From Amphiura filiformis (Eukaryota; Echinodermata; Ophiuroidea; Amphilepidida; Amphiuridae): DNA of 64,000 nt. A model generated the notes under the pieces. It did no database searches and was not told the origin of the DNA. It saw only the letters and a program-made list of their open reading frames with translations. Of this stretch, positions 4,028-56,160 are shown piece by piece. The stretch spans positions 36,326,784-36,390,783 of the forward strand of contig NC_092640.1 of the NCBI RefSeq assembly GCF_039555335.1, given 5' to 3'. Numbering within the stretch: position 1 is the stretch's first letter; the number at the start of each line of letters is the position of its first letter. The translations under genes and the position numbers were made by a program.

Positions 4028-4168
4028 GCCTTTTTTGAAATATGGCGGGCGCAAAAGGAGAGGGCGTACTTTGAAGTGAGTAATCGTTTGTCAGCTGAGA
4101 AGCATACAAAAGATTACTCACTTCAAAGTACGCCCTCTCCTTTTATGCCCGCCATATTTCAAAAAATA
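4028..4168. repeat. hairpin MITE (about 140 bp)
   Basis: Arms of about 50 bases are nearly perfect reverse complements (TGAAATATGGCGGGC on the left, GCCCGCCATATTTCA on the right, both enclosing GGAGAGGGCGTACTTTGAAG), separated by about 27 bases. It looks like a miniature foldback transposon; superfamily undetermined. Confidence 0.8.
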
Positions 4169-4363: not shown

Positions 4364-6280
4364 TTTGGCTTTTGAAGAAGTCTCAACTTGAAGTTGATAG
4401 ACAAATTCACGTTGATCAATGTAAGAGCTACACTCGCATGTTGGAACAGGCGAAATGTGACCACCATCGCGCAGAAATATCTGAGTGTAATGACCGCCAG
4501 CTATTTCGTGTCGTCGATAAATGAGTCGTCCAGCTGCTGCTTCAACACCTGCGCTTCCATCCCACGATGATGCAAAGTCTCTCGCTAACAGATTCGCCGA
4601 TTTCTTCTGCACAAAGATCAAGAAGCTTCGGGAAGAAATGGATAAATCTACGTGTCCAGAGATATCTGTTGACATTCGCGATACATGTAATAGTGAGTTT
4701 AGCGCTTTCAGCCCGGTTTCGGAAGAGACAGTAGGGAAGATTATTCTCGAATCAGCCGCAAAATCATGCCCTCTTGACCCGATTCCATCTTCGCTGCTCA
4801 AGGACTGCCTAGATGTCATTCTTCCGTGTATTACTAGCGTAGTCAACAAATCTCTGACGACGGGCGAAATGCCATCTGAGCTGAAAGTCGCGAGGGTAGT
4901 TCCACTGCTGAAAAAGCCTGGTATTGATCCGGAAGCATTGAAAAACTACAGACCCATATCAAATCTAAAGTTCTTGTTTAAGACCATCGAAAGGGTAGCA
5001 TCATCACAGATCAATGCTTATTTGCAAGATAAAGGTCTATTTGCACCAATGCAGTCAGCATACCGCAAGTATCATAGCACTGAGACGGCCCTGTTGCGTG
5101 TTCAAAATGATCTCCTGCGGGCAGTTGATCAGCATCAAGAAGCCGTGCTGATCCTGCTCGATTTCTCGGCAGCGTTTGACACGATTGATCATGACATCCT
5201 TCTCCATCGTCTGTGTCAACGCTACGGTATCACTCAAACAGCCTTGAAATGGTTCTCCACGTATTTACGGGGTCGTACTCAGTGCATTGATATTGGCGGT
5301 GTGCTTTCTGATGAGCACTTGTTGGAAGAAGGTGTTCCACAGGGTTCAGTGTTTGGTCCTTCTATTTTTACTATGTACACTGCCCCTCTTGGTGATATCA
5401 TTGCTTCTCATGGATTAAATCACATGATCTATGCTGACGATACCCAGCTATATATGATACTGGATCGGTCTGAGAGATCCAAAGATTTTAGCAGGCTTGA
5501 AAAGTGCGTCAGCGATGTGAAGTCATGGGCTGTTTCCAACAAGCTTATGCTAAACGACTCAAAGACGGAGGTCGTTCACATGAGTTCCCGATATGTTCAG
5601 TCATCACCTCTCCCACCTTTGACGATCGGTGATTCTGTCATTAATGCATCTGAGTCAGCACGCGATCTTGGTGTCATTTTTGATAGCAGACTTGATATGA
5701 AGCAACATATTAAGAGCATCACCAAATCTGCATCATTTGCCATCTACAGAATAGGTCAGATACGCAAGTACCTTAATTCCAACGCAACAGAACGCCTTGT
5801 TCACGCATTTGTGTCATCACGCCTGGATTGCTGCAACAGTTTACTCTTCGGCCTCCCTGATTGTGATATCGCCAAGTTACAGCGTCTCCAGAATTCAGCT
5901 GCAAGGTTGGTTTCGCGGTGCAAATATCGCGACCATATCACACCAGTTCTGGAAGAACTACACTGGCTGCCAGTTCAATACCGTATCGAGTACAAGATAC
6001 TTCTACTTATACATACAAATCTTTGTGTGATTTGGCACCAGCATACATTAAAGACCTCGTCTGCTCATATCACCCGAGTCGCTCTCTTCGCTCATCGTCA
6101 AAGAACCTTCTTCGTCCGCCGTCAAAAGGAAACACTATTTATTATAGTGACCGTGCCTTTTGTGCTTCCGCTCCTCATCTATGGAATCAACTTCCGGATC
6201 ACATCAGGCTAGCGTCTTCTGTCACCAACTTCAAAACGTTGCTTAAGACCCATTTATTTAAGAAGGCATACAATTGTTAA
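4364..6280 (+). pseudogene. LINE reverse transcriptase ORF2 remnant (L2/CR1 group)
   Basis: The product would copy the element's RNA into DNA at the target site. Three frame segments make it up. About 4364-4520 carries the linker ahead of the RT. From 4521 to about 6010 lies the RT itself, with LLDFSAAFDTIDHD (block with the first catalytic Asp), EEGVPQGSVFGP, and IYADDTQLY (the YADD catalytic pair). From about 6010 to 6280 lies the C-terminal thumb with SAPHLWNQLPDHIR and TLLKTHLF. Frameshifts near 4520 and between about 6000 and 6015 break the frame, so this copy is dead. The long open stretch begins at an ATG that is internal to the original protein, not a true start. Confidence 0.9.
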
Positions 6281-8027: not shown

Positions 8028-8087
8028 TCACGTCCGCCTCAGAGCTACTCTGATATTGCCATGGGGGTCATCTGCTGGAGCAAATAC
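8028..8087 (-). CDS. UOX: uricase exon 7 (C-terminus)
   Basis: Residues 298-316 plus TGA: VFAPADDPHGNIRVALRRT. The DDPHG block matches the family's C-terminal DNPHG/DNPYG. Acceptor ATCACACAG|GTATTT. No SKL-type peroxisomal signal follows. Bases 7912-8027 would be 3' UTR before the foldback element; no AATAAA is obvious there. Confidence 0.92.
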   Translation of the reverse strand, partial: VFAPADDPHGNIRVALRRT

Positions 8088-11000
8088 CTGTGTGATAACA
8101 AAACAAATTAATGATTATCATGATTATTTTCATTTTTGATATACCCTTTACGTTACTTGTCTCTTTCAGTTGTAACCATTTCTCTCTGGCAGCTATAGTT
8201 TTAAAAGGGAACATTTTTATTGTCCTAGAGATAAGCGGTTTTCCCGATTAGGCCCCATGGGGGAAAATGGTAAATCGCACATATTTAGCAGCATTTCTGC
8301 TCATTTATCACCATTTTGCAGAATTCAGCAGTGTTTCAACAGATTTTGTTGCGATTTCTGCCCACCTTAGGACATTGATCAAAATCCGAAACAACCTTTG
8401 TAAAATTTACCGCAATTTTCCGGTGATTTATTAAAATTGATCACGATTTGTATTGATCGGTCGCAATTATGCAAAAGATTTGCAGTGATCGATTACAATT
8501 CAGCATTATGATAATTTTAGGTAATTTACAGCAATTTTTTTCACAATGTTCCCATAATCTATAACAATCTGTTTGATTTTTTGATGATCTCCCACTTCTC
8601 CCCATGTGAAATGGGGCCTCTGATTCGTCTGTAGTAGATGACCAAGATGCGAGTAAAAGTGAGAAATTTAGTAGCTGTCTAATTTTCACAACTGGCATGA
8701 CATGTGTCAGGCATTGGACAGGATATGTTTGAATTGGTTACCATAGCATTACCTCCTTATTCATTTAAACATGTTGGGTAAACTATGGCAAATTGTTTAA
8801 GGCGCCTGACTCAGTAGCGTAATATCATGAAGGACAATCATCACCACGGGCTAGCTACAAGACGTATTCAATAATTTCCATTTAGTTAATATATTCGGAA
8901 TATTTAAACTAAAATTGCTAACCTGACATCGGTTATAATTTAAGAATGTGTCAATACTAAAGCACTCCATACATTATGAATCGGATGTAGGACCTGCGAC
9001 TAGAATATATAGGCTAACAATGAAATTGAGTTGATTATTATTCTTTGTTCTCCAGGATAACATACCTCATTGTTGTTCTCGATGCCAATTTTGCCTAAAT
9101 TAGCCGAGAAGTAGTGAACATTGGGCATCGCGATCTCTGCACGATGAATCTGAAATCATTATAAAACAAATTAATATTAAAACATACATGTTTAAGGGTG
9201 GGTGGTTCATCTTTGATATTGTATTTATTTATTTTTTGGAAGAAAAATATGAGCTCTATTCTGATATCAAAATTTTGATAAAGTAAATTGGCGGGAGGGA
9301 AGGCTGAAGCTGTCGATCCGGTCACCCATCATGAGTACATATTGTCAATTGTCAAATTGGTAATCCTCTTTAGTTTGCTCTACTCTATATCATGATATCA
9401 TGATATGCAATGACTTTTTTACTTTTTTAGAGTTCTGTCGGGGTCCCTCCACTGCGGTTGAGCTCATACAGGATGTATCAAAATGATTTTTGCACGAGAA
9501 TTGGGGGTGTGCTAACAACAGATAGATTGAGAATTTGTCCGCACGGACACTAGTAGCTAAATGAAATCGAGCTTTTGTAATGATTTAATATTAACACTGT
9601 CGTTCCTTCTGTTTTGACACCTTTTAAATACTTGTCTTGACGTATCTTCTATTACGTTTACATGGGAAGTGCCGCGTGCCGTAAATATATCGTAACAGTG
9701 AAAAACCCAAATTACAGGTCATATATATATATATATATGTAATGTATATATATATATATATATAAATATAGACACAGATATTAAAATTTCACCAGCTCTA
9801 ATTAATTCTACCAATTATGAGCACTGTATAGCTGTCTGTATATATATAAATGGAGAAATAGCCAAAAATCTGCCGGGGTGATTTTTTCACAATTTGGGTT
9901 TGTTGCAAATTTGTGATGTTATTAATGTTAAAAATATTGTGTGATAGTTTCAGACCGGAATATAACTGGCATCTTGTATTTTTGAGACATTTTTCGAGGT
10001 AATTCGTAACTTACGAACTCAATATCTTCGCTTAGGAATGTCCGATTTCATTGGGGAAAACGGCGTTGTGGATCAAAATATCTCTTTATTTAAGATATTT
10101 AAAAACCTCAAAATTGATAACCTGCCCAAAAGTGTCTCCTTTTGACATGACACGTCACAAATATGCTGGAGACGGGGTCGTCTCAGTGGCTGGCCCCAAA
10201 GCTTGGAATAATCTTCCAAATCATATCCGTAATTCTCTAACCCCTTAAAATCTGCTCTCAAAACTTATCTGTTTCAGATTGCCTATGTTTCGTTTCTCTT
10301 GCTTTTGCTTCTTTGTTTCCGCTTTGAATCCAGCGGTAAAGGCGCTATGAGTGTTGGTTAATATTAATGATAAAACTTTTTTTCAATGCTCCAGCTGGGA
10401 TTTTTAAGTAGTCAATGATCGAGTCTTGGTTAAACACCATTAACCCATTATATTTATAAAAAAATAATTTCCATACCCCCGGGAATTCCTTCAGTATCTT
10501 CTCAGCAGTCTTATACGCTGTGCGTTGTACGGATTCAGTGAACTCTCCAGTTTCTGCAGGACCGCTGAATACTTCTAATGTAACGTTCTTCACTGACTCC
10601 CTGCGTTAAGAATAAATAGCAAAACAATACATTGCCTCAACACCAAACGAGGGTAAAAATTAATAACAATAAGAGACTTATTCTTACTACGTTGACTTAT
10701 TCTTGGTAATATGCTGTACTAAGGTTCAACACCGGGCCCTATGCTTTTCTATTTGGTTTCAACATCAATGGATAGTCGAGGGTCAGTTCTAACCAGTGAT
10801 ACAATAAGGTACCAACATCTTCCACATCAGTACGCGCTATGACATCACGGCATATTTTAGCTATGCGCAGAACATCTCAGTAAACACAAAAATGTTCTTA
10901 AAACGTTTATTGTTTTAATAATATTTTAATACGTTTTTAAAACATTATTGTAAAATATTTTGGGCAAACATTAAATATTTTTGCAAAATATTTTGTCAAC

Positions 11001-14000
11001 AGTTAAATAACATTTTGTTTGAATGTTTTGCATCACGTTTTCAAATATGTTAGTATGAATGTTATTAAACGTTTTTATGCCCTTTATAACCCGACATTTA
11101 AACCCTTTATGTAAAACGTTGTGTGGGGGTAGTACCGATAGGGTTGTGGCAACAGGTTGTACATCCTCCCCCATATTGGGGTTAAGACATTTTATTACAA
11201 CAACAACTCCCAATTCTCTTTTAGATTAGTCAGTATAAAAGCAACTGAAGATGTGAGCGCAAGAAGACCTCAACATGTATACACTCAAGTTGCGTATAGT
11301 TTCGTATAGTTTGGTAATGTTTTATACATGTTCAGGGGCCAAAGCAAATCTTTCACAACCTTTCATGATGTTTTCACCCTGGAACATGTAACTATTAAAC
11401 ATTATAAAACCCTAAGAAACTATACGTAACTTTAGTGTATACATGTTGAGGGGCCAAGTGGACTTACGGTCTTCTTGCGTTGCTTACCATGTCTCGTCGT
11501 AGTCTTCAGCAGTATCGATGTACAGCCATTTGACATATGCAACAGTTGACAGCACCCTGTCATACGCATCAGGGAGAGAAGTGTATTCATCCTTAAAGAA
11601 CCCGGCAAACCCCGATTGGGTTGTCTTCAAGATTCGCATGCCCTTAATACCGGAGAAAATCTTGGCTTGCTCTGAATATTTAAAAATGACATACAATGTA
11701 ATGAAATAAATTATCAAAGGTCAATGGTCACAAACGTATGATATTTTAACAAAGTTTCGTTTCTTATTGTTTTTAGTTCTTCTTTTTCAACAAACCAATA
11801 TTGTAATATAATGGTATATGTGATAGTTTGAATCAACGATAATATAAAACGTTCATTTGCCGAGTCGAGTACTTTGAAATGAAATCTCATAATTATATAC
11901 ATGAATGTAAGACGTGTGGGATCCATCCTTGTAAAGTATTCGACTTGTGGTGCTCATTGTCGATTTTTAAAGCCTCTTACACCATACGGGTCAATACCAT
12001 ATTTTGAGCCTCTTACCTTCTCTTTCATAATGCACGTCAGTGAATCTGATCGCTTCTGAGTTGCTGATAAACGCATACTTACTTATCGCCTTTCACCCCT
12101 TCCCGGGGTATAGGCCGCCAACAAGTGTTCTCCAGATCTGCCTGTCTTGGGCTTTGACTTCAATCTCACTCCAGCTGTATCCCATCTTTTTAGTGTCAGT
12201 CTGTAAGTCCCTTCGCCAACTGTTTCTTGGTCGGCCTATACTCCGCTTTCCCTGAGGGTTCCAGGTGAGTGCCTGTCTTGTTGTGTTACTTCTTGGTTTC
12301 CTAAGCGTATGTCCTATCCAACTCCATCTCCTTCTGCCTATTGTTTCTTTCACTGGTTCTTGATGGGATTTCTTCCACAAGTCAGAATTACTGATCTTGT
12401 CTGGCCAATGTATCTTGAGAATTCGTCTTAAACAGCTATTTATAAATGTCTGCACTTTGTGTGTATTGCTCTTCGTCATTCTCCATGTCTCCGCACCATA
12501 CAACAGTACTGATTTGACTATTGCATTGAAAAGCCTGAGTTTTGTACGTTGTGACAATAGTTTTGAGTTCCAGATATTTTTAAGCTGCATGAATGATGTT
12601 CTTGCCTTTCCAATCCTAGCCTTAACATCGGCATCTGAGCCTCCTTTCTTATCAATGATGCTGCCAAGGTATGTAAATGACTCTACCTCTTCCAGAGCAG
12701 CACCCTCCAATGTAACTGGTTCAGTACTACTTGCATTTACTTTCATTACTTTTGTTTTCCCTTTGTGTATATTGAGTCCTGTTGAATGTGAGATGGCTGC
12801 AAGTGTGTTGGTCTTATCTTGCATCTGATGTCTAGTATGCGACAGTAATGCCAGGTCATCAGCAAAATCCAGGTCCTCTAGTTGTTCCCACAATGTCCAC
12901 TGAACTCCATTTCTTTTCTGTTTCGTTGTTGTCTTCATTATCCAGTCGATGACTAGAAGAAACAGGAAAGGAGAGAGCAGACATCCTTGCCTGACACCAG
13001 TTTTCACTTCAAATTGTCTGGTGAACTGCCCTTCGTGTAAGACCCTGCAGCGAATACCATCATAGCTATTTTTTATTAGATTGACTAGTTTGGTGGGTAT
13101 GCCATAGTGTCGTAGAAGTTGCCAAAGAGTCTCTCTGTTCACACTGTCAAATGCTTTCTCGTAATCAACAAAGTTTACATATATTGATGAATTCCATTCT
13201 AAGGATAGTTGCAATCTGGTCTATACAAGATCGGTTCTTGCGGAAACCTGCTTGTTGATCTCTAAGTTGTGGATCCACTGCATTTTTAATTCTTTCGAGG
13301 ATGACTCTGTTGAAAACTTTTCCAGGCACTGACAGGAGTGTAATTCCTCTGTAGTTAGCGCAATTACTGAGATCTCCTTTCTTTGGGAGTTTGAATCAGG
13401 TCCTGTTGCTTTACCATTTTTCAGATGGAGGATTGCCTTTCTGATTTCAAATTTACTTGGTCTTTCACAGTTGATGTTGAGATCTGATTTTGCTGGTTCA
13501 ATGTCTGGTGGATTTGGTGGTGTTGGTCTGTTGAGCAACTCCTCAAAATGTTCAGCCCATCTGTCCAGTTGCTGTTCCTTGTCCAAAATTTTTGTCCCTG
13601 TCTTGTCTTTCACTGGTCGTTCCGGTTTACTATATTTGGCCAATTTGTAGTGTCATAAAGATGTTTCATATTTCCATTGTTTGCCGCAGATGTACTTCCT
13701 CTTATCAGCTTTGATGCTTTTCTTAACCTCCCTGTTTGCCCTTGCATGCCAAAGCCTTTGACTGTCTAGTCTAGCTTCTTAAGTGTTTGCTGTAATCCAA
13801 TCTTTCTGCTGATGCTTGTGTCCCACTACTTTTTAAGTAGATGTTATTGTCTCTTGATGCTTTTCTGGTTTCACCCGTATTTTCTTTGAAATCCTTTGGG
13901 AGTTTGATGATAGCCTTCCTTCCAGTCTGATGGAACTTTGTCTTCATCCCAGATTTTTCCAAACAGTGTGTACAATAGCTCAGTTGTGGTGTCAATATCT

Positions 14001-16998
14001 GCCTTGAGTTTGAAATTGCCTTTCTGATTTCAAATTTACTTGGTCTTTCACAGTTGAAGATGGTTCAATGTCAAGCAACTCCTCAAAATGTTCAGCCCAT
14101 CTGTCCAGTTGCTGTTCCGATTCCGCGACCTTTGTCCCTGTCTTGTCTTTCACTGGTCGTTCCGGTTTACTATATTTGCCTGCCAACCTTCTTGTAGTGT
14201 CATAAAGATGTTTCATATTTCCATTGTTTGCTGCAGCCTCTGCTTCATCTGCCATCTTATCTATGTACTTCCTCTTATCAGCTTTGATGCTTTTCTTAAC
14301 CTCCCTGTTTGCCCTTGCATATTCTTTCCTTTGCCAAATGATTTCTTCTGTTTTCTTACTTCTATCTTAAGTGTAAGCTGTAATCCAATCTTTCTGCTGA
14401 TGCTTTGTGTCCCCTACTTCTTTACAAGTAGATGTTATTGTCTCTTTGATGCTTTGACTGGTTTTCAACGGTATTTTCTTCTTCCATCCTGCAATGCCTG
14501 AAACCTGTTGGAAAGTTTCAAGCCAAAGTCTTTTTCTTGTTTGTTCCTCTTTCAGGAGGTCTACATTGTACTTCTGTCTCTTTATAGTTGTTTCCTTGTG
14601 ACTTGATGATCTGATGCTACATCTGCCCCTCTTTTCACTCTTACATCTTGTAATGTAAACTTCTTGCCAATGCAGAAGTGGTCAATTTGATTTTCAGTCT
14701 TGTGGTCTGGTGATACCCATGTTGCCTTGTGGATTCTCTTGTGTGGAAAGACGCTGCCTCCTATTACAAATTTATTTAATGCACATGTGTTGAGAAACCT
14801 CTCTCCATTTTCGCTCATATCTCCAATTCCATGTCTTCCCATAATATCCTCATAACCAGTGTTGTCATTTCCAATTTTTGCATTAAAATCTCCCATGATG
14901 ATGTTGACATCTTTCTCTGAGCACTTGTCTAGGACACTCTGCAGATGATCATAAAATTCTTCCTTGACTTCGTCCTCACTCTCATTCGTTGGTGAGTAAC
15001 ACTGTATAACATTCAACTTGATTTTCTTCTCTGTTGTCCTGAATGCAGCCCTGATAATTCTTGATCCATGAGCTTCCCAACCTATTAGTGAGTTCTGAGC
15101 CTGTTTAGAAAGCATAAATCCAACGCCCTCTGTGTGATGGGCATCATCATTTTCATGCCCTGATAAACGCATGGTTATGTTCAACCCCAAGATTGTCCAT
15201 TCTCCGCCATGGTACCTCCTCTATGTGTGCTCTACACTTAACAACTTGTCCATAAGCGTCAAGGTGATTTTGACAGATATCTATGGCGAACTGCTCAATG
15301 GTCTCTATCTGTTAACAAGCAAGCAAAAATCAGTATAATTGACTTCCGAAAGAGAATTCGAAGAATGCGAAATCGAAGTAGCAGAAGAAATCGAAGTAGG
15401 AGCGGGAAGAGGAAGAGGAGGAAGAAAATGACGATAAAGATGAAGCGGAAGAGGAGAAAAAGAAGAGGAGGAGGATCAAAAGAAGGATGAGGACGAATTG
15501 GTTTTCTCAAAAACATAATTCCAAAAATCAAGTCCACTCTAACCCTGACTAACATACAACATTAAAGGTATACATCACTGAACAATATTATAGATGTACG
15601 ACCTTTCCCATTTCCCTATGATTCAAAACAATATCCCAATTTTACGAATTTCGCATTTTTCCTGGCTACATAATAGGCCTAGTCTATGTAAAATATCATA
15701 CGAAGTTGAAGTGGTTCCAAGTGAGAATTTTTCCGAATGGGGTTTGGACAAACTTGCAATTGGGACAAGTGGCAATGGAAGGGATTGGACTAAATAGGAT
15801 ATGGACCAATCGAGTTTGGACTAAATAACTTCTCAAATATATTTCTCAATTATTGTTCTATGGCCAACGGTCAAGGGAAAATCGCTAGCGCTGCTCTACC
15901 AGAATCCACCAGAATATAGGCCAAATGTTAGTGCAAGCTTAACTACCATAATGACCTGAATAGAAGGTGGCAATAGTATCCCATTAACATGCAATAATCG
16001 TCTCACTTCAGTCCTGGTTGCGATGGTTTCTAGATGTATATTGATTAGGGTTCTGAATGAGTTGGAACTGTTTGGCGTTGCTCGCTATAGATCACTTTTA
16101 TTTTTGCAAGAAAACACGCTCCGGGAACTTACGCTCCGGGAAACTTACCCCTTTCTCCTTTGCCAATGCATAAACTCTGTTAAGCATGGTATCTGTAGCA
16201 AAAACGTTGGTGTTGTTTCCATACTTATACTCGTCATGTGTCTTTAGCTTCATTTTGACATCAACAACGATTTCCTTTATGAAGTAAACATTTCCTTCTT
16301 GACGCATGCGCATAACACGTATTCCTTCCTTGCCGTAATTAGTGAGTTCTTCTATGAATTCAAAATCTGACAAAGAGAATATGGTATTTTTTTCTTTTTA
16401 AGATATAACACTCCACCAAAATAAAGATATGACACACAAAACCAATTACCAATATCAACCCCACCTCGATCGTCACTGTTCTATAGACCACATACGGTAG
16501 AGAGTTGCTACACACAGACGATTTTGTGGATGTGACTATTGTAAAAAAAAAGCATCCGCTTGATTGTTTCTCGTAATCAGACCAATAGTTTTCAGCATAA
16601 TGTATTTTCCCGAATTCTATTACTTTACCTCAAAAATATTTTTCGCTATTTCAAACTTGAAAAACAAAGCAAAACGACCGTGAATGTGCCGCTCTACCTG
16701 GTTTCGGTATATATGGTCAATAAAAATTATTCCTATTTTCTTTTACACAGTCGATACACAAACTTTGTCAAATGTGTGTCCTTTTCCAACGGCCTCGATA
16801 TTGGTTGATTTGAACTACTTCCATCCGGCTGGCGCGTCGAGAAGTAGTGCTTCCCCTCAAAACATGACTGTTGTATAACAAATTTGTATGTCTAAAAGCA
16901 ACGGTTCGGTTACCTTTTTTGTCCTTTTTCTTGTGCGCTTCAACAAGAAGGAGACAGAGCAAGCCTATCACCGCAACGTTGACTATGGTTGTATTCAT
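8028..16998 (-). CDS. UOX: urate oxidase (uricase) with predicted signal peptide; exon 3 interrupted by a LINE
   Basis: Uricase oxidises urate to 5-hydroxyisourate with O2. Exons (minus strand): 16998-16914, 16366-16149, 15308-15160 continued at 12063-12017, 11671-11488, 10600-10477, 9149-9066, 8087-8028. Lengths 85, 218, 196, 184, 124, 84 and 60 sum to 951 nt, 316 residues plus TGA. All introns are GT-AG and phases match. Residues matching the Aspergillus flavus active site: Lys41 (YGK), Thr86-Asp87 (ATDT), Phe188 and Arg205 inside the signature LKTTQSGFAGFFKD...DR, Gln253 (SVQ), Asn279 and His281 (PNVHYF). Residues 1-21 are a hydrophobic signal-like leader ending near VEA; the C-terminus ALRRT has no SKL. 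An upstream in-frame TAA fixes the start. A 3.08-kb RTE LINE splits codon 151; in this sequence translation would stop after residue 152. The gene identity is secure; secretion is inference. Confidence 0.93.
9066..9149 (-). CDS. UOX: uricase exon 6
   Basis: Exactly 28 codons (270-297), reading IHRAEIAMPNVHYFSANLG and GIENNNE. Asn279 and His281 match the active-site pair of the family. Acceptor GATTTCAG|ATTCATC, donor AATGAG|GTATGT. Too short to appear as an independent open frame. Confidence 0.93.
9720..9772. repeat. (AT)n microsatellite in uricase intron 5
   Basis: Two AT runs separated by GTAATG within the 1,327-bp intron 9150-10476. Confidence 0.9.
10150..10350 (+). pseudogene. 3' fragment of an L2/CR1-like LINE in uricase intron 5
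   Basis: Antisense to the gene. Reads VVSVAGPKAWNNLPNHIRNSLTP, then after a stop LKSALKTYLFQ in the same register, the conserved C-terminal tail of L2/CR1 polyproteins (compare SAPHLWNQLPDHIR and TLLKTHLF at 6200-6265). The sequence GGTAAAGGCGCTATGAG follows as the element's 3' end. Only the last 60 or so codons survive. Confidence 0.75.
10477..10600 (-). CDS. UOX: uricase exon 5
   Basis: Completes Trp228 and encodes residues 229-269, including TGEFTESVQRTAY with Gln253, the urate-anchoring glutamine. Acceptor TTAACGCAG|GGAGTC, donor CCGGGG|GTATGG; the run of five G makes the exact donor base dependent on phase, and this choice keeps frame with exon 6. Confidence 0.92.
10874..11133. repeat. 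AAACGTTTT-rich repeat fragment in uricase intron 4
   Basis: Starts AAACACAAAAATGTTC and repeats ACGTTTT, TTGGGCAAACATT and AACCCGACATTTAAAC, the internal vocabulary of the element at 23285-23974. One end is missing. Confidence 0.7.
11258..11485. repeat. foldback repeat abutting the exon 4 donor
   Basis: CGCAAGAAGACC and CTCAACATGTATACACT on the left (11258-11325) recur reversed on the right (about 11400-11485), which ends at the GTAAGC donor of exon 4. It is intronic, about 225 bp, noncoding. Confidence 0.6.
11488..11671 (-). CDS. UOX: uricase exon 4 (signature exon)
   Basis: Residues 167-227 plus two bases of codon 228. Acceptor ATATTCAG|AGCAAG, donor ACATG|GTAAGC. Carries the PROSITE-type uricase signature from LKTTQSGF to DAYDR; only the first and third positions of that pattern differ (Met and Ile). 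Phe188 and Arg205 are the urate-stacking and urate-binding residues by alignment. Confidence 0.95.
12017..12063 (-). CDS. UOX: uricase exon 3, downstream part
   Basis: Last base of codon 151 through codon 166 plus one base, reading NSEAIRFTDVHYERE, then donor GAGAAG|GTAAGA. It continues the 15308-15160 frame exactly once the LINE and one copy of the duplication are subtracted. Confidence 0.92.
12064..12076. repeat. target-site duplication, 3' side of the RTE
   Basis: CTGATAAACGCAT on the plus strand, 13 of 13 identical to 15160-15172; directly abuts the GATAAGTAAGT tail. Confidence 0.95.
12093..15159 (-). pseudogene. RTE endonuclease-reverse transcriptase, rearranged
   Basis: Endonuclease part (15159 to about 14590): IIMGDFNAKIG, ATWVSPDHKTENQIDHF and ADVASDH, the Asp/His motifs of AP-type endonucleases. 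A linker part is present twice (see 13435-14480). RT part (13214-12093): VDYEKAFDSV, GVRQGCLLSPFLF and LDFADDLALLS (FADD catalytic pair), then a thumb with SVLLYGAETWRMT and GHTLRKP, ending GGLYPGKG. Frame breaks follow the endonuclease and lie between linker copies, so this copy is not autonomous. Confidence 0.93.
13435..14480 (-). repeat. internal tandem duplication within the RTE linker
   Basis: Segments starting at 13435 and 14018 (offset 583) share long near-identical runs: GCCTTTCTGATTTCAAATTT, CAGCCCATCTGTCCAGTTGC, GTCTTGTCTTTCACTGGTCG and CTTCCTCTTATCAGC. Both encode YSKPERPVKDKTGTK and EQQLDRWAEHFEELL on the minus strand. The downstream copy has small deletions. The duplication adds a second linker and would inactivate the polyprotein. 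Confidence 0.9.
15160..15172. repeat. target-site duplication, 5' side of the RTE
   Basis: CTGATAAACGCAT on the plus strand, identical to 12064-12076. In the uncut gene this 13-mer encodes MRL-frame shadow but in the uricase frame covers codons for HAFI and part of Ser151. Confidence 0.95.
15160..15308 (-). CDS. UOX: uricase exon 3, upstream part
   Basis: Residues 102-150 plus two bases of codon 151. Acceptor GTTAACAG|ATAGAGACC. Reads IETIEQFAIDIC, then HIEEVPWRRM and NHAFI, all recognisable uricase blocks. Ends at the 13-bp target duplication bordering the RTE insertion. Confidence 0.93.
15345..15485. repeat. purine-rich tract in uricase intron 2
   Basis: Plus strand is GA-rich (GAAGAGGAAGAGGAGGAAG and similar), so the gene's transcript carries a long polypyrimidine tract upstream of the exon 3 acceptor. 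A simple-sequence repeat; the antisense open frame across it is low-complexity and not a gene. Confidence 0.75.
16121..16148 (-). promoter_or_regulatory. UOX: duplicated 5' splice site of uricase intron 2
   Basis: On the minus strand GTAAGTTTCCCGGAGC is followed directly by GTAAGTTCCCGGAGCG: a tandem copy of the donor 16 bases downstream. The first donor keeps frame with exon 3 and was used in the model; the second would add 16 bases and shift frame. Confidence 0.6.
16149..16366 (-). CDS. UOX: uricase exon 2
   Basis: Residues 29-101. Acceptor TTTGTCAG|ATTTTGAA, donor AAAGGG|GTAAGT. Contains the YGKE segment with the catalytic Lys41 and NVFATDTMLNRVYALAKEKG with Thr86-Asp87, the conserved N-terminal half of the tunnelling fold. 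Confidence 0.93.
16914..16998 (-). CDS. UOX: uricase exon 1 (signal-peptide exon)
   Basis: Encodes residues 1-28 plus the first base of codon 29. ATG at 16998-16996 is preceded in frame by TAA triplets. Residues 5-18 are a continuous hydrophobic run (IVNVAVIGLLCLLL), then VEAH and a Lys-rich HKKKDKK stretch. Donor is AAAAAAG|GTAACC. Typical peroxisomal uricases start directly with a short polar segment, so this exon is the unusual part. Confidence 0.85.
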
Positions 16999-27945: not shown

Positions 27946-28250
27946 TTTAAATCACTAAGTATGTCCATAGATGCATAATTGAAATGTGTTTTAGCCGAGT
28001 ACGTGCGCATGCGTTGTGAAGATTTATAAACGGATTTCTTCAGACTTGGTTTTAAGTTTCAATATCGCATCAGAAATTGAAAACTCTTATTGCACATGAG
28101 CAAAGTTTAAAGCAACTTGAAACAATTTAAGCCGTCAGCGTATCAGGAGAATCGGCTTGCTTGCAAAAGTGCTAACACATTAAGAGTGAGAACAAGCCGA
28201 TACAGCGGTATTCAGATAAGAAGGCGTCAACAATAGGCTAATTCTGCACA

Positions 28251-30376
28251 TTGATGTCATCACAACCCAAGTCGGAAACGGGAAAAGCAACGACAAATGC
28301 TTCAAGCCGTGTCACATTTTCGGTAACTTCTTATGTCATTGGGCTTCTCACGATCATACTGAACGGTTTTATAATCGTTTCGTTTTTACAAGTTCGTGGC
28401 ATGAAACATAAACCCGGAAATATATTCATTCTTGCTCTCTCCGTGACCGATCTTCTGTACGGGATCTATGAGTGTGTGTTCCTAGCAATCCCATACTTTT
28501 TTCATAATAGGTATCCTTATGGAGAAATCGGTTGTCTCTTAACAAGTGCTTTTAGCGAACTTTACATTGTTAGCCATCAGCCTTATGCTTATCTCATTGC
28601 CGTACCCACGATATTTAAAATGTCTTACTGTTTTCCGCGTAAAGGTGGTAATCTTTGGTTGCTATGTTGTTGGTCTTGGAGCGGTTTTAACAGATCTTGG
28701 TCTCTGGAAATACGCAAGAGTAACCGAACCTGATGCTGCGAGTATTAACTTTAACATATTTGCCAAAACCCGACTAGAAGGTTGAAATGGTTCGCACTGG
28801 TGTATTTTATAGGGTTAACATGCCTCCCTGTGGTGCTCATTGGTATCCTTAGTGCCGTGTTCTTCTGTCTTCTTCGTCGTCGCATCAAGCAGAACAGACA
28901 GGTGGCAGCTACCGAAGCACCTTCTAATATCAGCACCATAAGTGTGACAAGCGCACAGAATTCCAGCCAACACAATTATCAAAATGAGGAGAGTCCAGAA
29001 GAGTTACGCATGAGAAATCGATATATTAAGCCCGCCGTCACTCTATTTGCCCTCGTCGCGGAAGCTGGAATTAGTATGTTCAGTTGGAGGGCCATTCAAC
29101 TTTGACGCGCTATTATTAAACTGTACGCTATGAATACGCACACAACGAAAATTTAAATTTGCTTGATTTGGGTTGCAGTTTTAAAAGCTTCCAAATTTCT
29201 CTCTACAACTCCTAATAGCTATATATTTTATATATAACTACAAGAAAGGCTTTCAACATTCCATATATGTTCACAAAAAATACCGTAACTTTGCAAGGAA
29301 TATGATATGGACAGCACATAAACACAAATTTTTGTCATGAATTGAGATAAAAGAGTAAGAAAAACTGCGTTATTTTAAAAATGGTGCGAGTTCATAAATC
29401 AGGAATTTGCATATGATTAGAAACATGGCTTATTATCCTCATATTAAAAATCAAGATTTTTGGTTGGTTAAGACAAAACCTGCCGGGATGAAAAGGGTAT
29501 TTTTACAAGACGGAAAAATACCAGTAAACAGTAGGCCATGCGACAACAGCATTGAGAAGGTTCATGCGAGCAGTGTTAAACTGCGCGCGCGTATTTCACT
29601 GAACGCAGATGAATGGCGCGCTTGGGCGCAACAAAGTCACGCGCGTGTACTCGTTCATGGTGTCAAGTCACGCGGTATTGTTATGAAGTTGTTTACTTAA
29701 TTTTCGTCGATGGGCCTAATCTGGGTAACCAATTTAAACTATTATAACAATTTAGAATTTTAAGTTCAAAATTTGGGACAAAGACTAATCGATAGATAAA
29801 GGTTGAAATTACTTGTCTGGCTAAAAATTAGAATGATTAAAGCGTTAAGACAGAAAATATCCGGGTTAGAAGTCCTTAGCAACGAAAATAAATTTGAAGG
29901 TAAAGCAAACGCAAAATCACGAATTCTAACGACAAAAAGTAGACAAAATGGAAATCAAGTAGAGAATTGTGAAGATATTTTCTAATAAAACTTATTTGTT
30001 AATTGCCCAAGATGATTGGCTACACATAATACGATACATTTCAAATCGAAATTTTCCGCGGGAAAAGTAAAAAAGCATACCCAAGAGTGCGACGGTCATT
30101 TTTGCCAAGGTCGCGTCCGTTAATAATTTGACCTTTAACGGAAAACGCGCATGATGGCCCTCCGACTGTGTTTCCATTATGTGCCTATATCTTCACAAGA
30201 ATGTTCTCAGACAGCAGTGTTGGAAAATCTGGCGCCGGGGGAGGAGGATTCAGTTTTGCTATAGTGTCACTGGTATCGCAGTTAAACCCACTTTTGGATC
30301 CGTTGTTTTACGAAGCTACGCAGAAGAGTGCCAAAGAGTTTTACAGGAACAAGTTTAGGTTTAGGTCACGACACTG
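28251..30376 (+). pseudogene. class A (rhodopsin-like) GPCR pseudogene
   Basis: A seven-helix plasma-membrane receptor gene, intronless, ligand unknown. Intact parts: TM1 with ILNGFIIV, TM2 with LALSVTDLL, GEIGCLL before TM3, TM5 with TCLPVVLIG, an Arg-rich loop LLRRRIKQNRQ, TM6 start NRYIKPAVTL, TM7 with QLNPLLDPLFY. Defects relative to the copy at 54846: deletions totalling about 28 bases around 28570 remove the end of TM3 including the DRL (DRY-equivalent) motif; a lost base and an in-frame TAG at about 28760-28777; and a 1,089-bp element within TM6 at 29081-30169. Reading resumes at 30170 and ends near 30376. Clearly non-functional. Confidence 0.92.
29081..30169. mobile_element. TIR element inside the GPCR pseudogene, 1,089 bp
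   Basis: Ends CAGTTGGAGGGCCAT and ATGGCCCTCCGACTG are inverted (14 of 15), flanked by TGTT at 29077-29080 and 30170-30173. Removing it and one TGTT restores the sequence seen at 55675-55690. No transposase recognised; a 97-codon open frame at 29407-29700 has no identifiable motif. Superfamily open; a 4-bp duplication excludes hAT and Tc1/mariner. Confidence 0.88.
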
Positions 30377-33511: not shown

Positions 33512-33858
33512 GGTGATCGTATAATTCACGATTATTTTACGAGGAATGTCAGTTAATCATTGCTACTCAGCCTTACAAAAACTTCNNNNNNNNNNNNNNN
33601 NNNNNNNNNNNNNNNNNNNNNNNNNNNNNNNNNNNNNNNNNNNNNNNNNNNNNNNNNNNNNNNNNNNNNNNNNNNNNNNNNNNNNNNNNNNNNNNNNNNN
33701 NNNNNNNNNNNNNNNNNNNNNNNNNNNNNNNNNNNNNNNNNNNNNNNNNNNNNNNNNNNNNNNNNNNNNNNNNNNNNNNNNNNNNGGTGATCGTATAATT
33801 CACGATTATTTTACGAGGAATGTCAGTTAATCATTGCTCTCAGCCTTACAAAAACTTC
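33512..33858. other. assembly gap of 200 N between 74-bp direct repeats
   Basis: N run at 33586-33785. The sequence before it (33512-33585, from GGTGATCGTATAATTC) is repeated straight after it (33786-33858) with a single base missing. Either a true tandem repeat collapsed in assembly or unmerged overlapping contig ends. Open frames across the N run are meaningless. Confidence 0.95.
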
Positions 33859-40142: not shown

Positions 40143-42335
40143 ACGCACTTAGAGTCACTTTTTAATTTTGGAAACATCTTGAATGTAATTTGAGACCATC
40201 TAAAGAACCTAAAGAAGTTTAGTTTATTAGTCCTGGAGGGTGCAACTATTAAAGCTAGTGGTGTTACCTGCCGTCTAAGTCGCATTTGACCATTATAAAT
40301 TCATAGGGATATGATACATACATGGCCATATAAGTCCTTTGGTCCCCACATGGCCCAAGTGTAAATACAGGACTGTGCAATAATTATGAAACCCTAAGAG
40401 GGTACATAGTGCAGTTATACTGCACAGCAAACATGATTTGACCTTTGCAGTACTTAAACCTGGTTAATATGAAACTATTCCAGCAAATCAATCGACGAAG
40501 TCTAGTTTATTCCTCCACATTGAATGGTGGACTGCAGTTATGCCCAAATGTGGCACTTGCCAATCAATAATCACCCACTTCAACTCCCTGACTCGCTGCA
40601 CTGACCAAAAGTTATGGACAGATATGGGAGCTGTTTTTGCTGTTATCTGTCATTTACATATCAGGGTGGTACGAACATTTGCAGATGCCCCACATACTCA
40701 GTTGTTAACCTACATGTTATGTATACATTATTCTTGATTGACAGCAAGTACAAACAATATCCGTCAAGTGGTTTAGCTTTAATGCTCTCTGGAAGAGAGC
40801 GGTCTACAAGTGAGTGATAGTCACTAAAGTTGCATTCGATTTACACAGGGAATTTTGCAGGCCATGCCGTACCGTACTTACTAAAACACCAAAGTGCGAA
40901 TATTTCCAAATATCTAAATTAGCTAACAATTTAGGACATGTTACAAAACTATATTTCCTAGAATTTCAGAGAGTACAATAAATATTGGCCGCTTATTTTT
41001 CACACAGTGAGGTTAACTAGGAAATGCCCTATACCTCCAACATACACTGTTTGTAGAGGTCACACCTCAATGGTGAGAGCACTGTGTATTTTGTACAGGA
41101 AAATGAACAGTAACTGCAGTATGAAAATTAGGAGGAAGTTTCCCGCGAGATATAACTATATAGACATTTTAGGTTTGCAAAGTGGGTATCCCCAAAATTG
41201 CCATTTGCAAAGAGGGGGGGGGCATGTTTTTTATTTTTGACAGGCGGGAGGCAGGCAAGCAATTTGACAGGCCGGAGAATGAGGGATAAGCATTTTTGAA
41301 CACCGTTTGGCAATCTTGAGCCCCCCCCCCTGCTCCTTCCTACTGCACAAGACCAAAAGAGCCAAGTCTTTATGATTTGGACCCAAAATGTGTGAAATTT
41401 GAAGATTTTTATATTATTTTGTTTTTTGCATTTTTCTAAGATGATGGAACTATGTATACTCCCCAAGAAAGGGCCAAAGTAACACTTTTACATCTCCTTT
41501 GCACAAATGGATCCAGGTCTCTACCTCTCTGGAAGGACTCTTTGCTGACAGGGCTCTTCACCTTTAAATCCGCCGCTGTTGGTCCTCCTGATGCTTTGTG
41601 TTTTGAACGTTATTGTAAGGCAAAGGTTTATACGATTTATACTTGTATTTGGTGGTGTGTGCATGTTTGTTTTATTTATATTTCTGTTTATTTATTTTTT
41701 ATACACTAATACCCAGTGTCTTACGCAAAGGCCCCACCCCTATTGATTACTCATTCAGGGATTTACCTATTACGGCGAGCGGCGAGTTTAGTGTGTCGAC
41801 ATTTTTGAACAGTCAGGGAATCGAGACAAGTGCCCTCTTTCAGGCCATATTTATCCAGTTTTGGTATCTTTGCTTTAAAATAATACAGTTTATTTTTGCA
41901 GGGTAATACGTTTATCTTCCAGGAAAAGAGTCAAGCAAGTCACTGATCACATTTATATTTTCATATGTATTGTGTTATTGAGTTATGACAAATAGGCCAG
42001 TTTTCGCTATTTCCCACCTCTCAGGAATTCAATCGTTGGTAATCATCAATAAAAGTTTCATAAACTACGGTATAGCCAGGTTTTCCCATAGCGTTGACCA
42101 ATAACATAGCGCATGTTTACTTGTTTACCTTTACATCTGTGCTGGGGCATATTAATGATGATAAGTGGAGGGATGAGGTGAGAATGGGTGACTTTGAAGA
42201 ACGTACGTTGCAATTCTGGAACAGAGTCGGCATTTTTGTTAATATTTAAAAAGGCAAAATAAATTAAGGGTCATAGGAGAATTATAAAAACTAAGACTCT
42301 TGAGAAACTGTACTTCCCTTGTTTTGTATGAGAAT
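40143..42335. other. intergenic, no gene recognised
   Basis: G- and C-runs at 41212-41222 and 41321-41331 mark eroded MITE ends. No exon convincingly identified. Confidence 0.5.
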
Positions 42336-42359
42336 GGGCTATTCCAGAAAATAAGCGCA

Positions 42360-42790
42360 CACCCCTATAGAGGAGTTCGGATATCCAGACTTTTCCATCC
42401 ATCCAAGCTCCGGATATCCGGACTTTTCAAACAGAGGAGTTCGGATATCCAGACTTTTCTGTCCATCAAGCGCCGGAAATCCGGACTTTTCAAACATCTT
42501 CCCTCGATAAGGCCATGCTCGACCTATAGAGGAGTTCGGATATCCAGACTTTTCTGTCCACCCAAGCTCCGGAAATCCGGACTTTTCAAACATTTTCCCT
42601 CGATAGGGCCGCGCTCGACCTATAGAGGAGTTCGGATATCCAGACTTTTTCTGTCCATCCAAGCTCCGGAAATCCGGACTTTTCAAACATTTCCCCTCAT
42701 AGCCATTTGCTCGACCTATAGAGGAGTTTGGATATCCAGACTTTTTCTATCCATCCAAGCTCCGGAATTGAGTCTGGACTCAGACTTTTT
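42360..42790 (+). repeat. subterminal tandem array, left end
   Basis: About four and a half units of 95-115 bp, each with TATAGAGGAGTTCGGATATC, CAGACTTTT, TCCATCCAAGCTCCGG and AAATCCGGACTTTTCAAACA. Long open frames on both strands here are a by-product of the repeat period. Confidence 0.92.
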
Positions 42791-43184
42791 TGTCGGATTC
42801 GGACTCCGTCCGACACAAACAGACTTGGCTGGCTAGATTCACACTCAGATACAAGGGGCAGTCATTTTCATATGAAAAGGTTTGACTACAAAAACGATTC
42901 TCTTATAAATACTTTTTCTCATTAGGTCAACAGATAACGCAATTCAAAGTTTATAGCAAGGCAAATGTGGTCTGTAGAAGCGACCTATCCCAGCACAATT
43001 TTTGACCAAAATAGTCAACTGGGTATTTGAGTCTGTGTATTGAAAGGGTCATAAAAATGTATAGTATCTGCAGAGGGGCTCAAAACAGGTAAGATCATAA
43101 AAATAGTGGTCCTGTACTATCCCTATTTATGGACCACCTCCCTCCCCACCATCACCCAAAAAATGACCCAAACTCAGAGACGAC

Positions 43185-50802: not shown

Positions 50803-50974
50803 GTAGCTAAAGTAATACAAATACTGTATTCAAGCCCCCCTCCCCATTGTTGCTTTTATCACAATTAGAATGTCTATCACCCCAAAATATTTTTTCTATT
50901 TAAATATACCACTTGGAAATCTGAACATGTCCTACTTGTCGCTAAAAATCAGGACATTTTCATCGTATCCAACG

Positions 50975-51480
50975 CCACTCCTCTATTCCCTTGAAATCCG
51001 GACTTTTGACACTTGTCACTAAAAATCCGGACTTTTCAACATATTTGATGTCACTCCTCTATACCCCTTGGAAATCCGGACTTTTGACACTTGTCACAAA
51101 AAAATCCGGACTTTTTCAACATATTTCATGTCACTCCTCTATACCCCTTGGAAATCCGGACTTTTTCACACTTGCACTAAAAAAATCCGGATTTTTTCAA
51201 CATATTTGATGTCACTCTCTATACCCCTTGGAAATCCGGGCTTTTACCCACTTGTCACTAAAAAATCCGGAATTTTTCCTCGTATTTAATGCCACTCCTC
51301 TATACCCATCGGTGCAATATGTAGTTGAAATTCCGCAACTTCAGCATGAAAGTGGATAAAATTTCCGGCTTATTTTCACTTTCTAATGAAGAATATGGAT
51401 ATCCGGTTTTTCTTTGATTATTTGTGGCCGGAAATCCAGACTTTCGTAGAGAGATAAGCTTGGAAATCCGAGTTTTTCTC
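50975..51480. repeat. subterminal tandem array, right end
   Basis: About five units of 75-80 bp with CTCTATACCCCTTGGAAATC, CGGACTTTTGACACTTGTCA and AAAAATCCGGACTTTTTCAAC, decaying toward the terminus. Open frames are repeat artefacts. Confidence 0.9.
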
Positions 51481-52235: not shown

Positions 52236-53560
52236 CTAATCCATCGTCGACCCACTGCAGGGCGAAGGCCTCTCCCCAAGGTGACGCCACTCTGATTTAT
52301 TCCACGTCTTTCTCATCCAGGTTACATCAAGAAATTGTGTAATTCCATCACTCCATCTAACTTTCTGCCTTCCTGGGTGCCTGGTATAATTTCTAGGTAT
52401 CCATTCTGTAACCAGTTTGGTCCATCGTCCATCTGATGTCCTAACTAGGTGACCAGCCCAAGACCACTTCTTTTCTTTCACAGTCTGCAAATGGTCTGGA
52501 TGGCATCGGTGACCCGTGTCATGCTTCTGATCCACTCATTTGTTTTTCTGTCTCTTTTTGTCATCCCTAGAATGCTCCTTTCCATACTTTGTTGAGTCAC
52601 TCTCACGTTCCGCTCCATTCTCTTAGTCATGGCCCAAGTTTCTGAGCCATACGTCATGGCTGGGAGGACACACTGGTTGTAGGCTTTCTTTTTAAGACAT
52701 AATGCCATATTGCTCTTAATCACCTCATTTAAGTTTCCAAAAGCACTCCATCCTGCTCTTATTCTTCTAACTTTGTCAAAGTGGTTGTAGCTCATTTTGA
52801 CAACTTGACCCAAGTACAAATATTCTTTTACTTCTTCTAGTGCTGTTTGGTGAATGTAGAATTGCTTTTTGATGACAAATTTTGTTGAACATTCTTTTTG
52901 TCCTGCTCATGTTGATCTTCAGCCCCACTTGGTTACTTTCAATGTTGAGGGCTTGCAGCTGTGATCTCCCAAGTGTTAATGCTTGTTTTGTCTTTTTGTA
53001 GCTTCTGCCTGCTTCCAAGGTTTGCTGTATCTTTGAGACTCTTAGCACCCTCTGCTCTCTCACCTTTCCTACCGCCCCCGTGGTTGGTGGCTTGAAAGCT
53101 GCTGCAGACCGAGGGCCTTGTCCTTAGTTGTGCCGCATAATTATATGGAGGTTGTGGCATACTCACCAGTCACCATGCTTGCCAGAGATGAATGTTGGTG
53201 AGACTTTACATTACTTACTTACTTTCCAGCAATGTCATATATATGACAAGGTTCTGCCAGCCGTTGTCCTAAAAAACAGGATCCTCCGCCTGCCATAATG
53301 CAGAAATTGCCGGTGACCACTTTTGTAGTTCGTACGCCATCTTTGCTACTTCGACCTTTTTGCTGGCCAGTCGAAGGAGGTGCTGGATGTCCATGGCTCC
53401 CCTGTGAGCTCATACGACCTTTGTAGGTGAGTCTTATTTTTAATTTCACCAGGGTATCCAGCTACCCTCCACACCATTGATTTCCTCCAAGAAAACTGAT
53501 TTATTTCCCGGATCTGTGGTGTGACAGGCAGTTTAGTCGCCGTCGGCTCGACCTTGAAAA
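52138..53560 (-). mobile_element. RTE-type LINE, internally deleted and frameshifted
   Basis: Minus strand. The 3' end (52138-52235) is a (GAT/GCT)n trinucleotide tail. RT thumb region (52236-53060): VGLKINMSRTK, YLGQVVKMSYNHFDKVRRIR, YNQCVLPAMTYGSETWAMTK, GHLVRTSDGRWTK, RQKVRWSDGITQFLDVTW, broken by several frameshifts. About 53205-53560 reads KIRLTYKGRMSSQG and HPAPPSTGQQKG, which I take as the element's 5' region. Endonuclease and catalytic RT are absent between. Different family from the copy at 12077. Confidence 0.88.
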
Positions 53561-54189: not shown

Positions 54190-56160
54190 GATGAATTACA
54201 CTAAGAAATGATGAATGAATGAAAATAGTAAACATTCTTATTTAGTAAATGTTTGAAATTAAAAGCCATGAATGAATATAACTACAATTAATTCTCATGG
54301 GTCTCCTTTCAAAATATGACTTAATCATGGTCAATTCATAGCCTTATAAGTTCATACAGTCACGGCAATAGCTATAATCAAATTCAAGGCATCCTCGACA
54401 TTTTGCTTTAGAATTACAGCAATATTATTAGTTATCATAACATTTTACAATTATTCGAAAACTTAGCGATTAAATATTACTTCTTATTAACAAGACAGCA
54501 TGGTTGTTTATCGTAGATAACAACTCCATTCACAAGCTCGCTATTAAATCAAGGTTCAATTACGTTTTCTATCTAAGATTAGTAAATTCTAACTTGTTTA
54601 AGATCACCGAATATGTCAAAACTGCATAATAAAATTTCTTCAGACTTGTTTTAATATCGCATAAGAATTTGAAAACACTTATCGCACATGAGCAAAGTTT
54701 ACAATCGAACAAGGGCGTTACGCCTTAAGAATATAATCAGGAGAAAAGTGCTTACACATTCAGAGAGAGCAAGCCGGATACATCGGTATTTAGATAAGGA
54801 GTCAACGATAATATTTCTGCATGTCATTACAAGAGCTCACAAGCCATGTCGGAAACAGAAAAAGCAACGATAAATGCTACAAACCGTGTCACATTTTCGG
54901 TAACTTCTTTTGTCATTGGGCTTCTCACGATCATACTAAATGGCTTCATAATCGTTGCGTTTTTAAAAGTTCGTGGCATGCAACGTAAACCCGGAAATAT
55001 ATTTATTCTTGCTCTCTCCGTGACCGACCTTCTGTACGGGATCTATGAGTGCGTGTTCCTAGCAATCCCATACTTTTTTCATAATAGGTATCCTTATGGA
55101 GAAATCGGTTGTCTCTTAACGAGTGGTTTTACCGAACTTTACATCGTCGGTAACCTGCTCCTTTTAGCCATCAGCGTAGACAGGCTTATGCTTATCTCAC
55201 TGCCTTACCCACGGTATTTAAAACGTCTTACTGTTTTCCGCGTAAAGGTGGCAATTTGTGGTTGCTATGCTGTTGGTCTTGGAGCGGTTTTGACAGATCT
55301 TGGTCTCTGGAAATACGCAAGAGTAACCGAACCTGATGCTGCGAGTATTAACTTTAACATTGTTTGCCAAAACCCGACAAGAAGGTTGAAATGGTTTGCA
55401 CTGGTGTATTTTATAGGGTTAACATGCCTCCTGTGGTGCTCATTGGTATCCTTAGTGCCGTGTTCTTCTGTCTTCTTCGTCGTCGCATCAAGCAGAACAG
55501 ACAGGTGGCATCTACCGAAGCACCTTCTAATATCAGCACCATAAGTGTGACAAGCGCACAGAATTCCAGCCAACACAATTATCAAAATGAGGAGAGTCCA
55601 GAAGAGTTACGCATGAGAAATCGATATATTAAGCCCGCAGTCACTCTTTTTGCCCTCGTTGCGGCAACTGGAATCAGTATGTTTCCCTTCTGTGCATTTA
55701 TCTTTGCACGAATGTTCTCAGACAACATCGAAGAACAGTCTGGCGCCGGGGGAGGAATCAGTTTTGCTATAGTGTCACTGGTATCGCAGTTAAACCCACT
55801 TTTGGATCCGTTGTTTTACGGAGCTACGCAGAAGAGTGTCAAAGAGTTTTACAGGAACAAGTTGAACAAATTGATTATGTGGCTTAGGTCACGACATTGA
55901 CCACATAGAAGTGTTATTCTAAACATGTCTCATGTCAGAACCGTCTGATGTTGAAGCAGCACAACTTACTAAAGGACTGAACGTGTCGCTAAACTTACAA
56001 TGTAAATAATTTCACACACAAATACGCCTATAAACTGGTGTTATGTTGAAGAATTGTAATTATAATACCGTCGTTCCCTTGCATTATTGGCTAAAACCAC
56101 AGCTAAAAATAAATCATAATAATTTTGTGTGTTTCAAATTCGTTTCTCGGTATGGTGTAT
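54190..56160 (+). repeat. segmental duplicate 2 carrying the better GPCR copy
   Basis: Collinear with 27078-30760 without its two inserts, and so provides empty sites for both. Similarity ends near ATAATTTTGTGTG.TTCAAATTCG at about 56145. Confidence 0.9.
54846..55900 (+). CDS. class A (rhodopsin-like) orphan GPCR, one-base frameshift
   Basis: Seven-helix plasma-membrane receptor, single exon, about 351 residues after allowing for one missing base. Features: N-glycosylation site NAT (10-12); TM1 Asn32 in ILNGF; TM2 Asp61 in LSVTDLL; Cys89 before TM3 and Cys174 (NIVCQN) in loop 2 for the usual disulfide; DRL 112-114 in place of DRY; TM5 Pro in TCL-PVVLIG; basic loop LLRRRIKQNRQ then a Ser/Asn-rich stretch; TM6 with MFPF rather than CWxP; TM7 QLNPLLDPLFY (DPxxY). 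TM4 lacks the usual Trp. The break is at 55427-55431, where CCTCC lacks one C present in copy 1 (28827-28832). Either sequencing error or an early pseudogene. Ligand unknown. Confidence 0.9.

Follow-up and report, generated by a model that had tools for sequence, protein, structure and literature searches.

Uricase (Uox) is described as peroxisomal in animals in excerpts of PMC5138847 and as typically single copy in excerpts of PMC10517255, and the excerpted text of PMC9208542 places the Uox gene head to head with DNase2b in nearly all chordates, a hemichordate, and a brachiopod. For the zebrafish enzyme (DrUox; PDB 5ll1), roles are named for residues K159, F165, R182, F184, V188, F216, and V229 in the excerpts of PMC5138847. 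Reptiles have lost the PTS1 from their Uox, and in reptilian and avian Uox this loss resulted from the addition of about 20 residues at the C-terminus, with cysteines enriched, the active site kept, and the N-terminal exon altered; the sauropsid enzyme was co-opted in skin, and the excerpts of PMC10517255 report no inactivating mutations in it. The initial annotation of the locus described here had named birds together with apes as classic cases of uricase loss, which does not agree with that account of sauropsid Uox. A hominoid UOX pseudogene is mentioned in the excerpts of both PMC10517255 and PMC5138847. Outside the uricase family, a catalase of Trichinella that carries a signal peptide and no PTS (PMC4690255, excerpted) offers a parallel only. 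Among the matches listed in a search of the titles and abstract openings of the open-licence literature, there was no LINE inside a uricase exon and no secreted animal uricase.

In the 64,000-nt stretch of Amphiura filiformis DNA analyzed here (the window, from contig NC_092640.1), a uricase gene of seven exons on the minus strand is interrupted within a coding exon by a LINE on the same strand. The explanation that best accounts for the locus as a whole, to which we assign a probability of about 0.68, is that target-primed reverse transcription placed a 5'-truncated APE-type LINE in exon 3 of a gene of the uricase family, with a 13-bp duplication of the target, and that a stop just past the edge of the insert would leave this allele without a working enzyme. 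The gene would encode a divergent, non-peroxisomal, and probably secreted uricase, a copy that the animal can presumably do without, and the insertion may be so recent that it still segregates; the corrupted stretch in mid-LINE would most likely be an assembly join within the repeat that left the junctions untouched.

All six introns of the uricase gene are GT-AG, an in-frame TAA stands immediately 5' of the ATG, and each exon is present in one copy within the window. Exon 3 spans 15308 to 12017 with the insert inside it. When the insert and one copy of the flanking repeat (3,096 nt of exon 3) are removed, the seven exons join into a single uricase frame of 951 nt (316 codons and a stop) that has no stop codon or frameshift, which bears out the earlier description of a spliced frame with no other defect. 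The joined frame matches Pfam Uricase (PF01014) in two stretches (4.6e-53), and its closest match among solved structures is zebrafish uricase (1.7e-81, residues 29 to 311), with which it is identical at 122 of 281 aligned residues (43%). Five of the seven residues named in the zebrafish enzyme (K159, F165, R182, F216, and V229) are kept, as are the YGK, TDT, SVQ, and PN-HYF positions, and the substrate-binding and catalytic residues that mark the Uox family are present. The other two named residues, F184 and V188, which belong to a hydrophobic cluster in zebrafish, are L and A in the present protein.

The 13-mer at the edges of the insert, ATGCGTTTATCAG, occurs exactly twice in the window, once per edge, and is a perfect target-site duplication (13/13) of the kind left by target-primed reverse transcription. 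The chance of a 13/13 match at two given edges is about 1.5e-8, or 3e-8 under the base composition of this sequence. The duplicated bases span codons 147 to 151 of uricase. The claims first made for this site, that a 13/13 repeat flanks the insert with the frame resuming after its second copy and that a same-strand LINE lies inside a uricase coding exon, both hold: the two copies are exact, there is no third in the window, the insert carries LINE domains, and the gene is otherwise complete. Both junctions of the insert are sound, whatever the state of the LINE core. Given the anatomy of the LINE, with an endonuclease, a reverse transcriptase, and a 5' truncation, the best reading of the insert is target-primed insertion of a LINE into a coding exon.

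Table 1. Coordinates of the uricase exons, the LINE insertion, and its parts in the window
Feature	Position	Strand	Details
Uricase exon 1	16914..16998	-	start codon; signal-peptide-like N-terminus MNTTIVNVAVIGLLCLLLVEA; GTAACC donor
Uricase exon 2	16149..16366	-	TGTCAG acceptor; GTAAGT donor; in frame
Uricase exon 3, 5' part	15160..15308	-	TAACAG acceptor; in frame to codon 150; last bases are copy 1 of the target-site duplication
Target-site duplication, copy 1 (ATGCGTTTATCAG)	15160..15172	-	exact match
LINE insertion, same strand as uricase	12077..15159	-	3,083 nt; Pfam domains; edges set by the 13-bp repeat
LINE, clean 5' end	14585..15157	-	endonuclease frame, 191 codons open
LINE, corrupted core	13221..14584	-	imperfect tandem duplication, copy A starting at 14518 and copy B at 13905; numerous short gaps
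LINE, clean 3' end	12096..13220	-	open reverse-transcriptase frame of 375 codons, followed by a stop and the 16-nt tail
Target-site duplication, copy 2	12064..12076	-	exact match
Uricase exon 3, 3' part	12017..12063	-	frame resumes (translation); GTAAGA donor
Uricase exon 4	11488..11671	-	K182, F188, and R205 conserved
Uricase exon 5	10477..10600	-	V252 and Q253 conserved
Uricase exon 6	9066..9149	-	N279 and H281 conserved
Uricase exon 7	8028..8087	-	C-terminus ...NIRVALRRT; no SKL/SRL-type ending

An endonuclease (Exo_endo_phos_2, 2.8e-6; 27.6 bits, barely above the cut-off of 27.4) and a reverse transcriptase (RVT_1, 1.9e-23) were both found by Pfam in the one element, as in RTE-like LINEs, along with DUF6451. 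The sequence begins within the endonuclease, and the LINE is therefore 5' truncated. A very short 3' untranslated region ending in a simple repeat is typical of RTE-type LINEs; here only 16 nt separate the LINE stop from the duplication, and this tail ends in GATAAGTAAGT. The insert shares with RTE-type insertions the APE and reverse transcriptase domains, the 5' truncation, the very short 3' tail with a TAAG-type repeat, and the 13-bp duplication, but is set apart from them by an assembled core that consists of a corrupted duplication. This anatomy is in keeping with the clade name RTE. Pfam recovered no RNase H domain from the clean LINE frames or from three read-through frames, in which sensitivity is limited. 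No further copy of the LINE was found in the window (blastn, E 1e-3), and its reverse transcriptase had no pattern match in a collection of viral contigs.

The core of the LINE differs in quality from its ends. The reading frame is broken many times between 14584 and 13221, and the reverse transcriptase domain is split in two between different read-through frames. In the alignment of copies A and B, the first 560 of 704 columns comprise 400 matches, 8 mismatches, and 152 gaps, so that the gap-free columns agree in 400 of 408 cases; the remaining 144 columns, in which A and B each have a piece absent from the other, lie outside this count. Within the 560 columns, copy A lacks 61 nt, 49 of them in its last third, and copy B lacks 91 nt, 85 of them in its first two thirds, in both cases nearest the join. 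Because the losses are concentrated towards the join and the LINE ends are clean, the core looks like an assembly join, probably a faulty one near 13.9 kb at which two poor sequence ends were abutted. Counting against this, the frame breaks on the copy B side extend to 13221, about 700 bp from the join, and the indels could be real, having arisen through a true rearrangement. A natural tandem duplication of the core is less likely, as 152 gap columns in 560 beside agreement in 400 of 408 is an unusual ratio for natural decay, and the confinement of the indels to the core speaks against uniform decay of the LINE. The element had been described as a 3,083-bp RTE; the insert does span 3,083 nt in the assembly, but with a core that looks like a faulty join this length is unreliable and describes the assembly, not necessarily the element. 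The present case is a warning that the interior of a repeat can be misassembled though its junctions are sound.

Several other features are found in the window. A 563-codon open frame on the plus strand at 4521-6209, with a match to RVT_1 (1.2e-31), is a further retroelement downstream of the uricase gene, and two overlapping open frames at 52239-52906 on the minus strand resemble the terminal part of another RTE-type reverse transcriptase. A palindrome at 4031-4166, with 66-nt arms (4031-4096 and 4101-4166) that are 92% complementary and 4 nt apart, is like a small hairpin or MITE-type element. Repeated peptide motifs are open on both strands at 42288-42833 (plus, 182 codons) and 42342-42746 (minus, 135 codons), and similar-looking repeat peptides occur at 50946-51286. 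A rhodopsin-type GPCR gene is present in two copies on the plus strand, at 28242-29102 (and 30132-30374) and at 54798-55897, which are identical in 852 of 948 alignment columns over their main stretch. Where one copy has a frame break the other stays open, and vice versa; the first copy is split by about 1.1 kb and lacks 17 and 9 nt in a short patch. A scaffold gap of exactly 200 N lies at 33586-33785.

With the insert in place, the predicted protein ends ...HNHAFIRA* after 152 residues, the first in-frame stop within the LINE being at 15155-15153. Since translation would end before F188, R205, V252, Q253, N279, and H281, the insertion allele is likely a null allele that makes no working enzyme. 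There are no stop codons in the 948 coding nt of uricase or in 1,677 nt of the LINE ends, which limits neutral divergence to about 0.026 or less (95%, from stops only), a bound that is somewhat optimistic in that the LINE ends were picked for being open; taken singly, the bounds are 8.6% from uricase and 11% from the duplication. The substitution evidence supports a young insertion, and the 2.6% bound would fit an allele still segregating in a diverse population. The initial annotation had argued from the absence of decay in the gene that the insertion is young, segregating, or tolerated; of these, youth is supported by the intact uricase frame and a divergence of at most about 2.6%.

The two ends of the protein are unusual for a peroxisomal enzyme. 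Residues 8 to 19 (VAVIGLLCLLLV) are its most hydrophobic 12-mer (mean Kyte-Doolittle 3.33; the best past residue 25 is 1.12), and EA follows directly. By hydropathy and by the (-3,-1) rule of signal-peptide cleavage, and not by a trained predictor, the N-terminus is signal-peptide-like, V and A preceding a putative cleavage site that follows residue 21. The C-terminus, ...VALRRT, is not a PTS1 tripeptide. Next to the peroxisomal Uox of zebrafish, the gene thus differs in its start, in having ALRRT in place of a PTS1, in the two substitutions in the hydrophobic cluster, in the absence of a DNase II neighbor from the region scanned, and in its interruption by a LINE. With reptilian and avian Uox it has in common the kept active site, the lost PTS1, and an altered N-terminal exon, but it has no C-terminal extension and only 2 cysteines past residue 21. 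The hominoid pseudogene carries fixed point mutations in a single-copy gene; the present gene shares with it an interrupted uricase coding sequence but is interrupted by a LINE in a possible paralogue.

A DNase II neighbor was sought in 30 pieces over 17.0-28.8 kb (11.8 kb upstream) in the three plus-strand frames, and none was found at E 0.1. The same scan recovered the 7tm_1 control at 28 kb, and its remaining matches were under the Pfam cut-offs. In a size-matched control of 8 pieces over the uricase gene, a Uricase match at E 0.1 was obtained for five of seven exons (2, the 5' part of 3, 4, 5, and 6), two of them above the cut-off, and exons 1 and 7 were missed; a whole DNase II gene should therefore have appeared, with the reservation that sensitivity for the DNase II family itself is uncalibrated. 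An earlier, coarser scan of long read-through frames also found no DNase II and missed the 7tm_1 control at 28 kb as well. The region beyond 28.8 kb was weakly tested, by that coarser scan and by a search of the window for DNase II motifs, which gave a single out-of-context match at 7041.

From these sequence features we infer a non-peroxisomal, perhaps secreted, divergent uricase copy. The signal-peptide-like start, the lack of a PTS1, the identity of 43% to zebrafish, and the failure to find DNase II together mean that a conventional peroxisomal uricase may well exist elsewhere in the genome. Alternatively, a lineage might have shed both the DNase II neighbor and the PTS1 from its only uricase, leaving a lone retargeted gene. 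A search for uricase relatives in a collection of genome contigs gave 40 pattern matches, of which seven were confirmed. All seven loci are bacterial, with an identity of 28-35% over a stretch that begins at residue 38 or 39 and runs to 315, and are uninformative on animal paralogy. Viral contigs gave 4 pattern matches, none confirmed.

The locus had been presented as a uricase loss caught in the act and comparable to that of apes. For such a loss to be in progress, this gene would be the only uricase of the species and the LINE allele would abolish urate oxidation in its carriers. The substrate-contact and catalytic positions are indeed kept, Uox is typically single copy (PMC10517255, in excerpts), and there is no other uricase copy in the window; however, the signal-peptide-like start, the end without a PTS1-like tripeptide, the 43% identity, and the missing head-to-head DNase II all point away from the ancestral peroxisomal gene, as do L and A at the positions of zebrafish F184 and V188, and we consider this unlikely. 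Since the gene that was hit resembles a retargeted copy, the insertion establishes neither a loss of uricase nor a loss of urate breakdown by the animal. The LINE could instead have entered a paralogue that was already dead or relaxed, the insertion being old and fixed. Such a history would suit the divergence of the protein and a LINE core full of indels, but it is made rather doubtful by 951 nt of uricase without a stop or frameshift, by the kept active-site positions, by LINE ends that remain open for 191 and 375 codons, and by indels confined to the core, unlike those of uniform decay.

Cryptic splicing might also remove the LINE, so that a shortened in-frame uricase is made and the insertion is tolerated. 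Between GT donors at 15308-14760 and AG acceptors at 12476-12017 there are 22 frame-keeping, stop-free pairs, and repeat copy 2 ends in TTTATCAG, an acceptor scoring -0.22 (with a splice-site matrix put together for this analysis) that is no worse than two native acceptors (-0.81 and -1.79). As the CAG of the repeat is as good as those two, the missing part is a donor: the best pair, 15238/12063, sums to -5.2 bits and would cost 26 residues, its donor scoring -5.0 versus 3.1 to 6.3 for the six donors of the gene, and the top-scoring donor, 14980 (2.63), is absent from the 12 best frame-keeping pairs. Skipping of exon 3 gives 755 nt, with a remainder of 2, and is out of frame. With no adequate donor in the 12 best pairs and a frame shift on skipping, both routes are unlikely, and a tolerated insertion is quite improbable. 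The chance that the assembler joined a LINE into the exon, and that no animal carries the insertion, is very slight. The imperfect tandem duplication with clustered gaps in the core, as where two poor sequence ends meet, and the 200-N gap elsewhere in the window would be in keeping with such an artefact, but a false join would not yield an exact 13-bp duplication at both edges together with a resumed exon frame, and the junctions and the LINE ends are clean.

Under the preferred reading, that of a target-primed LINE insertion into a divergent and expendable uricase copy, the mechanism of insertion is itself ordinary, and the uricase gene may be more interesting than the insertion. With its clean junctions, a LINE that disrupts a coding exon provides a loss-of-function allele that can be dated, and should the insertion segregate, null and working genotypes would occur naturally in the species. 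A uricase that has a secretion-type start but lacks a peroxisomal C-terminus makes one ask whether urate is oxidized, and hydrogen peroxide produced, outside the cell. Tentatively, the lineage may have evolved a secreted uricase, with a signal peptide, a lost PTS1, and a position away from the DNase2b-linked locus, and a segregating LINE insertion may now be removing this extracellular enzyme; if so, the insertion would be a natural knockout for testing extracellular urate removal or hydrogen peroxide production.
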